64,000 nt of DNA, taken from assembly GCA_017744515.1 (NCBI GenBank), contig JAGIBF010000046.1, positions 1 to 64,000 on the forward strand. Reading direction: 5' to 3'. A program made the position numbers and the translations under genes. The notes under the pieces were generated by a model. The model saw nothing but the letters and a program-made list of their open reading frames with translations, searched no databases and was not told where the DNA came from. Shown here piece by piece: positions 2,195 to 8,155 of the stretch. Every line of letters begins with the position of its first letter. Within the stretch, counting starts at the first letter, position 1. This DNA comes from Niastella sp. (GTDB lineage: Bacteria > Bacteroidota > Bacteroidia > Chitinophagales > Chitinophagaceae).

Positions 2195-3643
2195 TTATTC
2201 TCCCATTACTTCTCCGCCTTTTTTCATCCATGGCCTGGGTGCTGCACCATCCATTTTCACGATCTTAGGATAAAACAGACCTACAGTATCTACAAGATGT
2301 TGCTGGGCATTCATCACTGTATAGATATCCTTATAGGCATGTGGGGCCTCATCCAATCCACCTCCCAGCAGTTTCACGCCATGCTTTGTAAGCATTTCCT
2401 GTAAAGCGTTCTTTGTGATGGCATTCAAGGCAGCCGTTCTGCTCATTTTACGTCCCGCTCCATGCGAAGCGGAATTGATCGACGCCAGTTCACCCTTACC
2501 TTTTACGATAAAGCCAGGCGCCGTCATGGAACCAGGAATGATACCCAGCACATTCTTACCGGCAGGTGTAGCACCTTTTCTATGCACGATCACTTCCCGC
2601 CCTTCGTACATTTCCCGCCAGGCAAAGTTATGGTGGTTCTCTACCATTTTCAACGGCTGCCGACCCAATTGCTGCGCAATCTTGGCATGGATCACATGAT
2701 GACAGGCGCTTGCATAATCCCCCGCCAGGTTCATAGCCATCCAGTATTCTATTCCTTCATGTTCATCCATTGCCAGCCACGCCAGGTTATTGGCTTCACC
2801 CGGCAAACGCCTTTTCTGTTTAGCCACTTTGGTATAGTGATTGGCAATATTCGCACCCAATGCACGTGATCCTGAATGCGATAACAGTCCGAGGTAATTT
2901 CCCGGCGCCACACCCAACTGCTCATCCTTCTCTTTTACCTCAACAATCCCAAACTCTACAAAGTGGTTTCCTGAGCCGGAAGACCCCAATTGCCTGGCAG
3001 CCTTTCCCTGTAATCCTTTCAACAGAGGCAGCTGATCAAACTCCGGACGATCTATCACCGGATGCGCTGTGGATTGTTCAAACTGTCTTCCTCCACCAAA
3101 CAAAGTAGCCTCATTCAACTCACGGGTAAAATACTGCTCACGCTGTGTCAACTCTTTTGGATCTATATCGAATATGGATAAGCACATCCGGCATCCGATG
3201 TCAACGCCTACACCATATGGTATCACGGCGTTTTCTGTAGCCAATACTCCTCCGATCGGCAACCCATATCCTGCATGCGCATCCGGCATCAAAGCGCCTG
3301 CTATAGACACTGGCAGCTTAGCTGCCTGATACATCTGGTCCATAGCCCCGGGCTCGATGTACTCTCCTCCAAATACATTGAACTGGATACCAGTTGAATT
3401 CAGCGATATTTCCACACCTTCCGGTACCGGCTTAGGCAATAATTGTTGCGCCACGGGCGCCAGTATAGCATCCTCCACATACTCAGCCGGAGTAGCCAAT
3501 ACGTTCTTTAATATTTCTATTGCCTGTTCGGTAGTATGATGCTTGTAATTACGCTCCATCACATTCATGGCAATACTGATCACGGGTCCTTCCGGAAAAC
3601 CTATTGCCCTTAATTCTTTTCCTTTCAATTTTAACTTAGCCAT
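2195..3643 (-). CDS. rtcB: RtcB family RNA-splicing ligase
   Basis: PDAHAGYGLPIGGVLAT, GVDIGCRMC, GSSGSGNHFVEFG, SHSGSRALG, ENHHNFAW, SHGAGRKMSRTAA; the metal and GMP-His motifs of RtcB. Confidence 0.95.
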   Translation of the reverse strand: MAKLKLKGKELRAIGFPEGPVISIAMNVMERNYKHHTTEQAIEILKNVLATPAEYVEDAILAPVAQQLLPKPVPEGVEISLNSTGIQFNVFGGEYIEPGAMDQMYQAAKLPVSIAGALMPDAHAGYGLPIGGVLATENAVIPYGVGVDIGCRMCLSIFDIDPKELTQREQYFTRELNEATLFGGGRQFEQSTAHPVIDRPEFDQLPLLKGLQGKAARQLGSSGSGNHFVEFGIVEVKEKDEQLGVAPGNYLGLLSHSGSRALGANIANHYTKVAKQKRRLPGEANNLAWLAMDEHEGIEYWMAMNLAGDYASACHHVIHAKIAQQLGRQPLKMVENHHNFAWREMYEGREVIVHRKGATPAGKNVLGIIPGSMTAPGFIVKGKGELASINSASHGAGRKMSRTAALNAITKNALQEMLTKHGVKLLGGGLDEAPHAYKDIYTVMNAQQHLVDTVGLFYPKIVKMDGAAPRPWMKKGGEVMGE

Positions 3644-3648
3644 ATTAC

Positions 3649-4722
3649 TTAATTTTCAATAACAGCTCTCCTGAATCCAATTACCTGCACTTGTTGTTGC
3701 TGGCTTACCGGCTCACCCGGATTGGTGATCTCAGCAATGGTCATGGGCTGTTTTATTAATGTATCGAATCCCAGTTGATTGCTCAGTCTTTGCGCTTTTG
3801 GAATACTCAATTTACCAAATTCGTATCGTGCAATCAACCTGCCCTTCCGCATCAGCGCACTATCTATCATCGTCAATGAGCTATTAAATGTACAGATCAA
3901 TTGCACATTCAAAAAGTCAGCCAGTAGCCCATCAGAAATATTCAGCAGATTGGATACTGAGGAATGAGGATTGTTTCTCCTGTCCATGATCACATTTTCT
4001 GCATCTTCGATGATCACCACACTATTGGGGTTATCGATGAGCAAATCAATGAAATCAGGATCAGTGAGGCTTCCTGCGATATTGGGAGACAAAAACATTA
4101 CTTTCTTTTTGATCCGCCCAATTAAGTGACGCAGATAGGTAGTCTTACCCGATCCCGGCACTCCATGCAGTAATACGATCCCTTTATCATCCTTTTGGTT
4201 CAACCGTTTCCTGATATGTGCATCTACCTCTTGGAAATCATCTTCGTAGTAGAGGTCGAGGTCCAGTTTTGTACGCTTGATCTCCATTGCTTTCAATTCG
4301 AGATAGTTGCCACTCTTAACGATCAGGTTGATCTCCAACGGCTTTCTGCGCTGCCTTTCTTTGAATTGACGCAGGAAGCCAATCAGTTCTCCGATCAGCA
4401 GTTCGTTGGCGCTATCATGCAGAAGCTCACAATAGCCTTCAGAAAACTCCAGCACACAACGGTCTTTCAGGATCACGATCGTGTCGTTAAAATCAACTTT
4501 TTTATCGCCCCGTTTGAATTTACGGTACGTATGTACCGACTCAACGAGCGCTTTATATTTTTCCTGGAAAGCTGTATATGCCTTTTCACCCTCGATATCG
4601 TCTACAAAACTGATACAGGGAACAGCAGCAAAACAGTACATGTATAAAGCTTTGCTATCTATATAATAATTATCAAAAATGCTATTGGCATTAATGATAC
4701 GCTGGTCTAAAGTGTTGTCCAT
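3649..4722 (-). CDS. AAA family ATPase (BCS1-like)
   Basis: Walker A LLHGVPGSGKTTYLRHL, Walker B SVVIIEDAENVI, sensor-type segment LICTFNSSLTMIDSALMRKGRL; 5 bp upstream of rtcB on the same strand. Confidence 0.85.
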   Translation of the reverse strand: MDNTLDQRIINANSIFDNYYIDSKALYMYCFAAVPCISFVDDIEGEKAYTAFQEKYKALVESVHTYRKFKRGDKKVDFNDTIVILKDRCVLEFSEGYCELLHDSANELLIGELIGFLRQFKERQRRKPLEINLIVKSGNYLELKAMEIKRTKLDLDLYYEDDFQEVDAHIRKRLNQKDDKGIVLLHGVPGSGKTTYLRHLIGRIKKKVMFLSPNIAGSLTDPDFIDLLIDNPNSVVIIEDAENVIMDRRNNPHSSVSNLLNISDGLLADFLNVQLICTFNSSLTMIDSALMRKGRLIARYEFGKLSIPKAQRLSNQLGFDTLIKQPMTIAEITNPGEPVSQQQQVQVIGFRRAVIEN

Positions 4723-4756
4723 TGTTTTAATTTGAAATAGTTAAGAAGTCTTTACC

Positions 4757-4779
4757 CTGTCAGGCAGCTGAGCTGCTGA
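4757..4779 (-). promoter_or_regulatory. Small stem-loop (GCAGC-TCA-GCTGC core) between the RNA array and the AAA gene
   Basis: Inverted repeat tcag-gcagc-tga-gctgc-tga; no U-tract follows. Confidence 0.3.
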
Positions 4780-7960: not shown

Positions 7961-7987
7961 GGCTATACTTTTACACTTTTATCATTG

Positions 7988-8004
7988 CTGCAGTATTACT
8001 GCAG
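7988..8004. promoter_or_regulatory. Perfect 17-bp dyad ctgcagta-t-tactgcag just upstream of the TROVE gene
   Basis: Read directly from sequence; about 28 bp from the TROVE start. Confidence 0.45.
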
Positions 8005-8017
8005 TTGTCTTGTTTGT

Positions 8018-8155
8018 TTACCGCAATGCATACTCAGCCGGATGCTGCGTTTTGTCGACGACTGTATTGTCGGTTGTCTTTTTGTTGCCGGTCTGCTTCT
8101 TCGTTACCAGTTCCATGATGAACTTTATTGCCAGCACGATCAATATCAATTTCAT
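8018..8155 (-). CDS. Small ORF (45 aa), hydrophobic N-terminus, upstream of TROVE gene
   Basis: AAGGAGG then ATG 7 nt later; MKLILIVLAIKFIMELVTKKQTGNKKTTDNTVVDKTQHPAEYALR; absent from the ORF track because of size. Confidence 0.5.
   Translation of the reverse strand: MKLILIVLAIKFIMELVTKKQTGNKKTTDNTVVDKTQHPAEYALR

Follow-up and report, generated by a model that had tools for sequence, protein, structure and literature searches.

In Salmonella, cleaved tRNAs activate the rsr-yrlBA-rtcBA operon, which encodes Rsr and RtcBA together with Y RNAs (PMC7790460). In Anabaena, a tRNA array, rtcB and the genes of an AAA ATPase and a slipin lie at separate sites under repression by TrcR; translation stress lifts the repression of TrcR targets, and ribosome-targeting antibiotics release the trn array and rtcB (PMC10272220). 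Phage tRNAs, in addition, carry anticodon-loop changes relative to those of the host (PMC10264068). Here, we describe a locus in a 64,000-nt stretch of DNA from Niastella sp. (hereafter, the window; positions 1 to 64,000 of contig JAGIBF010000046.1, our contig C113, in a 7.6-Mb draft genome, assembly GCA_017744515.1), which combines Ro60, Y RNAs, an array of tRNA genes, an AAA ATPase and the RNA ligase RtcB. The best reading of the locus is that it unites rsr-Y RNA-rtcB operons with inducible tRNA arrays, both already known, and we infer that it is probably an inducible tRNA-replacement and RNA-repair operon directed against tRNA cleavage.

All elements of the putative operon lie on the minus strand and span positions 8155 to 2195 of the window, in the order listed below. 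Their content, order, strand and coordinates had been proposed in an earlier note made from the sequence alone, and Pfam profile matches confirm them with a sole correction: the DinB identification holds (PF12867), while its start, placed at 6348, may instead lie at 6363 (MKED...), because those residues are retained in a congener's protein. The close spacing described there was also found, with 4-6 nt between the DinB stop and the first RNA and 5 bp between the AAA ATPase and RtcB genes.

8018..8155, minus strand: small transmembrane peptide, 45 aa, C-terminal HPAEYALR, at the operon head (phmmer matches)
6443..7960, minus strand: Ro60 (TROVE and vWA domains), 505 aa (PF05731, E=3e-26; vWA_Ro60 PF25045)
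5815..6363, minus strand: DinB_2 superfamily protein, 182 aa, start 6363 or 6348 (PF12867, E=3e-14)
5666..5810, minus strand: Y RNA a (Y-a), outer stem TTGAATGA/TCATTCAA, permuted tRNA-like core (motif match, boundaries and fold)
5590..5662, minus strand: tRNA-Pro(UGG) with C33 (Rfam RF00005, 51.9 bits)
5517..5588, minus strand: Y RNA b (Y-b), minimal, without a tRNA-like domain (motif and stem)
5440..5511, minus strand: tRNA-CAU, Met or Ile2 (ARAGORN and Rfam)
5363..5436, minus strand: tRNA-Ile(UAU) (ARAGORN and Rfam)
5277..5351, minus strand: tRNA-Lys(UUU) (ARAGORN and Rfam)
5201..5274, minus strand: tRNA-Gln(UUG), A37 against housekeeping G37 (ARAGORN and Rfam)
5123..5195, minus strand: tRNA-His(GUG), G-1 kept (ARAGORN and Rfam, sequence reading)
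5049..5120, minus strand: tRNA-Arg(ACG), A37 against housekeeping G37 (ARAGORN and Rfam)
4911..5049, minus strand: Y RNA c (Y-c), YrlA type, Ro stem and circularly permuted tRNA-like domain (Rfam YrlA, motif, covarying stem, fold)
4836..4907, minus strand: tRNA-Asn(GUU) (ARAGORN and Rfam)
3649..4722, minus strand: BCS1-type AAA ATPase, 357 aa (PF00004, E=1e-9)
2195..3643, minus strand: RtcB RNA ligase, 482 aa (PF01139, E=2e-78)

The RNAs of the array are separated from their neighbours by -1 to 11 nt. The count of eight tRNA-like and three Y-RNA-like genes given earlier proved exact: seven tRNAs are called by ARAGORN and eight by Rfam, all on the minus strand, the eighth (5590-5662) being missed by ARAGORN in the window, and all three Y RNAs bear the Ro-stem motif of the clade. 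Since 8 of the 41 tRNAs detected in the genome fall within 830 bp, and since the arrangement recurs in many genomes, the association of tRNAs, Ro60 and RtcB is more than chance.

Judged by sequence comparison, the array tRNAs are old, separate from the housekeeping set and under selection. Those of the window are 56-64% identical to their own housekeeping cognates, where these were detected (one of two CAU tRNAs reaches 66%), a divergence that rules out recent copies of housekeeping tRNAs, and the UAU anticodon of the array tRNA-Ile is not among the housekeeping tRNAs sampled. Between the window and three congeners, corresponding array tRNAs are 92-99% identical, except for tRNA-CAU and tRNA-Ile(UAU) (78-91%), whereas fourfold-degenerate sites of RtcB and the AAA ATPase in the same species pairs are 36-49% identical; conservation so far above the fourfold sites therefore points to selection on the tRNAs and rules out decaying pseudo-tRNAs. 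Across Bacteroidota, 33 arrays with 304 tRNAs were found to adjoin Ro60 and/or AAA/RtcB, and 269 of 289 array tRNAs are closer to other arrays than to housekeeping tRNAs.

The anticodon repertoire of these 33 loci is biased. tRNA-Gln and tRNA-Phe each occur in 26 loci, His in 24, Asn and Lys(UUU) in 23 each, Glu in 18, and Pro and Arg(ACG) in 16 each, while Ala, Gly, Val and Thr together account for 13 of the 304 array tRNAs against 21 of 88 sampled housekeeping tRNAs, a bias that is a count and not a probability, the loci being related. Known targets of anticodon nucleases are tRNA-Lys for PrrC, tRNAs for Tyr, His, Asn and Asp for colicin E5, and tRNA-Arg for colicin D. Compared with housekeeping tRNAs, most array tRNAs for Gln, His, Arg and Pro carry A in place of G at position 37, and G or T replaces A there in the Asp tRNAs and in most of the Glu tRNAs; Lys, Asn, Trp and Tyr tRNAs show no difference. 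Position 33 is U in nearly all tRNAs; the anticodon loop of the array tRNA-Pro(UGG), CCUGGAA, has C33 in its place and is identical in the arrays of two congeners. Elsewhere in the genome (contig C119, L066:9309-9719), and likewise in congener G088 (L288:1526-2145), there is a further small group of unusual tRNA genes (Tyr, Ser-GCU, Ser-UGA, and Cys or Leu); its neighbour is conserved in the genus, and the stretch read holds neither RtcB nor Ro60.

As for the Y RNAs, the 5' motif TGYCGTN(6-12)TACTTCG, which was derived from the window's own elements, occurs 414 times in 99 Ro60 loci versus 4 times in shuffled DNA. Almost all of the 414 lie on the same strand as ro60, most of them directly downstream of it. 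The 3' partner of each stem was picked from inner-stem pairing alone, the outer stem playing no part in the choice; positions 1-4 of the outer stem are nevertheless 97-98% paired, with several pair types, against shuffle means of 45-77%. Covariation also links the 5' pyrimidine to the 3' purine (C-G 109, T-A 102, T-G 10, C-A 3). This motif enrichment and strong covariation show that the Y RNAs are real and structured. The Ro60 loci of the clade mostly hold 2-8 Y RNAs each, and simple pattern matching places the T arm before the D arm, as in a permuted tRNA domain, in 86 of 224 and finds neither arm in 43 of 224. In Y-c the T arm precedes the D arm, and the same holds for Y-a by sequence reading; Y-a also has a close relative at L054:4147. 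Y-c matches Rfam YrlA (RF02553) with 40.4 bits (E=4e-6), which is under the curated gathering cut-off of 69. Anticodon-stem mimicry was considered as a general trait of these RNAs and rejected, an anticodon-like hairpin being confined to a minority of 30 of 395 (shuffled mean 5.5, maximum 12).

The adjacency of Ro60, RNA array and RtcB is conserved in relatives, as the neighbourhood comparison across Bacteroidota demonstrated. A Ro60 gene adjoins a tRNA array in Chitinophagaceae, Chryseobacterium and unclassified Bacteroidota metagenome-assembled genomes, and in many Flavobacterium loci Ro60 occurs with Y RNAs and RtcB where few tRNAs, or none, are detected. Without Ro60, the array sits with the AAA ATPase, an RNase H-like protein (PF04308), a Band_7/SPFH protein and RtcB in many relatives, and other loci add the RNA-repair partners RlaP-type nucleotidyltransferases and Tpt1/KptA. 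In the congeners compared, among them Paraflavitalea sp. CAU 1676 (G166), which is of the same genus as the window genome and places the latter in Paraflavitalea, the same neighbours flank the locus at the same place. The syntenic locus of G088 holds the small open reading frame (ORF), DinB, three Y-RNA motifs, 11 tRNAs, the AAA ATPase and RtcB but no ro60, and congener G221 keeps only the small ORF, 7 tRNAs and RtcB. Ro60 occurs in 19, the AAA ATPase in 94 and RtcB in 129 of 251 genomes of the family sample, and Ro60 in 30 of 401 genomes of the phylum sample; of the 57 family genomes that carry both AAA and RtcB genes, 44 have the two no more than 12 kb apart.

The stable core is thus the tRNA array with RtcB, usually accompanied by the AAA ATPase, and Ro60 is optional, since it is missing from the loci of G088, G221 and many relatives. 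The earlier proposal that a Ro60/RtcB locus with AAA and DinB proteins incorporates a tRNA bank and Y RNAs of tRNA shape is supported; its linkage to Ro60 stands, whereas its placing of Ro60 at the centre does not. Several further versions of the locus were encountered. A HEPN AbiV-family protein adjoins RtcB in one Ro60 locus (L049:12707-13402), and the Ro60 locus of Marine bacterium AO1-C (L116:12033-17951), whose array is unlike all others seen, has ten Y motifs and heavily repeated tRNA-Met, Val/Ser, Ala and Glu/Gly genes. Ro60 also lies amid tRNA arrays on the IMG/VR viral contigs L165, L170, L173, L174 and L179, with Y-like motifs on L173 and L174 and an RlaP-like protein on L173.

In the proposed mechanism, tRNA cleavage by anticodon nucleases (from defence systems, toxins or competitors), or another translation stress, would switch the operon on, and a single precursor would supply replacement tRNAs for the most often cleaved species. 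These tRNAs, being divergent and altered in their anticodon loops, may resist the nuclease. RtcB ligates 2',3'-cyclic-phosphate to 5'-OH ends and would rejoin the tRNA halves that bear them. Ro60 might act with the Y RNAs, whose permuted tRNA-like domain could present a tRNA elbow, either delivering damaged tRNAs to enzymes of repair or decay or serving as decoys; on the simplest reading, Y RNA and Ro60 form an optional quality-control or decoy module. The AAA ATPase possibly remodels these complexes, and cleavage at the interleaved tRNAs by RNase P and by the tRNA 3'-processing enzymes might free the Y RNAs. More tentatively, the locus could be the bacterial counterpart of phage tRNA arrays, in which a nuclease-resistant tRNA bank, Y RNA/Ro60 and RtcB make up one anticodon-nuclease tolerance system whose anticodon set records the usual targets; the nucleases might then be, and we hold this just as tentatively, the cell's own abortive-infection effectors or incoming toxins.

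Some observations weigh against a replace-and-repair operon. Ro60 and the AAA ATPase can be lost while tRNAs and RtcB stay, which may mean that the components do not work as a single machine, and the position-37 changes could stem from foreign ancestry rather than from nuclease escape. RtcA is absent among the five assigned ORFs of 2195-8170, the operon having neither RtcA nor RtcR. No divergent RtcR was found among the flanking ORFs tested, which encode a metallophosphoesterase and a LuxR-type response regulator. Moreover, PADLOC gave no convincing model match for the window proteins, with weak P-loop matches for the AAA ATPase only. A general translation-stress array, whose tRNAs boost or rescue decoding under ribosome inhibition while RtcB, AAA and Ro60 are merely co-regulated and a nuclease is not the specific trigger, would fit the joint release of the Anabaena trn array and rtcB from TrcR by ribosome-targeting antibiotics (PMC10272220). 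We consider this rather unlikely, as an array serving general capacity would hardly be expected to omit nearly all Ala, Gly, Val and Thr tRNAs, RtcB acts specifically on broken RNA ends, and the physical linkage to the ligase is conserved.

That the tRNA-like genes are instead cargo, decoys or sponges of Ro60, with no part in translation, is suggested by their interleaving with Y RNAs, their divergence from the housekeeping set and the conserved C33 of tRNA-Pro; yet arrays persist without ro60, anticodon loops, the G-1 of tRNA-His and the T and D arms are retained, and Y RNAs are present in many Ro60 loci where few tRNAs, or none, are detected, which makes the idea very improbable. Still less credence is given to mobile or phage-derived tRNA cargo, such as a prophage remnant or a tRNA integration site. 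Synteny in the congeners, which share the position and neighbours of the locus, weakens the prophage reading in spite of the viral Ro60 loci and the patchy occurrence of Ro60 (19/251 family genomes); besides, no phage or integrase gene was recognised among the ORFs tested, and the tRNAs are under purifying selection.

Homologues of the small peptide (phmmer E=1e-14 to 5e-5) are small ORFs heading 10 related loci, share an HPA....R C-terminus and begin at the same Met, which backs the start at 8155 assigned earlier. The Ro60 profile matches the Ro60/Rsr structures 1yvp, 2nvo and 9l5y, and the residues D328 and S330 of its metal ion-dependent adhesion site (MIDAS) are invariant across 13 relatives; the Rsr model scores 36 bits with a cut-off of 900, indicating distant similarity only. 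DinB homologues adjoin the array in G166, G088, G164, G215, G085 and G220. For the AAA ATPase, whose named homologues come from Paraflavitalea, the best PDB sequence matches are BCS1, and a predicted model of modest confidence (predicted local distance difference test, pLDDT, 68) matches the folds of BCS1 and YjoB, so that BCS1 appears to be the closest solved AAA protein by both sequence and fold. The RtcB catalytic motifs DIxC, GSGNHF, HSGSR/HTGSR, HN and HGAGR are intact in the alignment to solved RtcB. Directly upstream of the operon, a LuxR-type response regulator and a histidine kinase (8678-10111, minus strand), retained in G088, are candidate regulators. Tandem 2'-5' RNA ligase/2H phosphoesterase-family genes (13058-13720 and 13745-14359, minus strand), about 5 kb upstream and also present in G088, possibly encode an RNA-end enzyme pair.

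Long bacterial tRNA arrays, Ro60/Y RNA particles and RtcB repair, three oddities hitherto studied apart, come together here in one conserved unit that occurs across Bacteroidota. The locus makes testable both the role of bacterial Y RNAs and Ro60 for tRNA and the reason why bacteria retain extra, divergent tRNA sets, and its biased set of anticodons predicts concretely which tRNAs are attacked in nature.

By analogy, the Salmonella and Anabaena systems may serve as precedents for replacement combined with repair. Like the rsr-yrlBA-rtcBA operon, the locus encodes a homologue of Ro60 together with RtcB and Y RNAs of the YrlA type in a single putative operon, but it lacks RtcA and RtcR, adds eight tRNAs, an AAA ATPase and DinB, and has a Ro60 of distant similarity. 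With the trn/TrcR system of Anabaena it shares a tRNA array, RtcB and a candidate counterpart of the AAA ATPase (Anabaena all0263), which are under common control there, and the slipin has a Band_7 counterpart in other Bacteroidota versions of the locus; a search of plasmids with the AAA ATPase of the window gave no cyanobacterial match. The Anabaena parts are dispersed, with the array on a megaplasmid, whereas those of the window form a single physical locus that also contains Ro60 and Y RNAs. The earlier note knew of no described system of this kind; the exact composition may indeed not have been described previously, although the TrcR regulon co-regulates similar parts. The supernumerary, divergent and tightly clustered tRNA genes of long tRNA arrays (L-arrays) are found in the window as well. 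Jumbo-phage tRNA arrays with Ro60/TROVE (PMC7824862; IMG/VR L173, L174 and L179) resemble the locus in that Ro60 adjoins many tRNAs, sometimes with RlaP-like or AAA-like proteins, and the altered loops of phage tRNAs (PMC10264068) are comparable to the position-37 switches of the arrays; however, the phage arrays are viral and larger, while the window locus is chromosomal, syntenic and bacterial. Finally, the Y RNAs share with YrlA (RF02553) the Ro stem and the permuted tRNA-like domain, but the clade of the window has several diverse Y RNAs per locus, some minimal and few with an anticodon-like hairpin.
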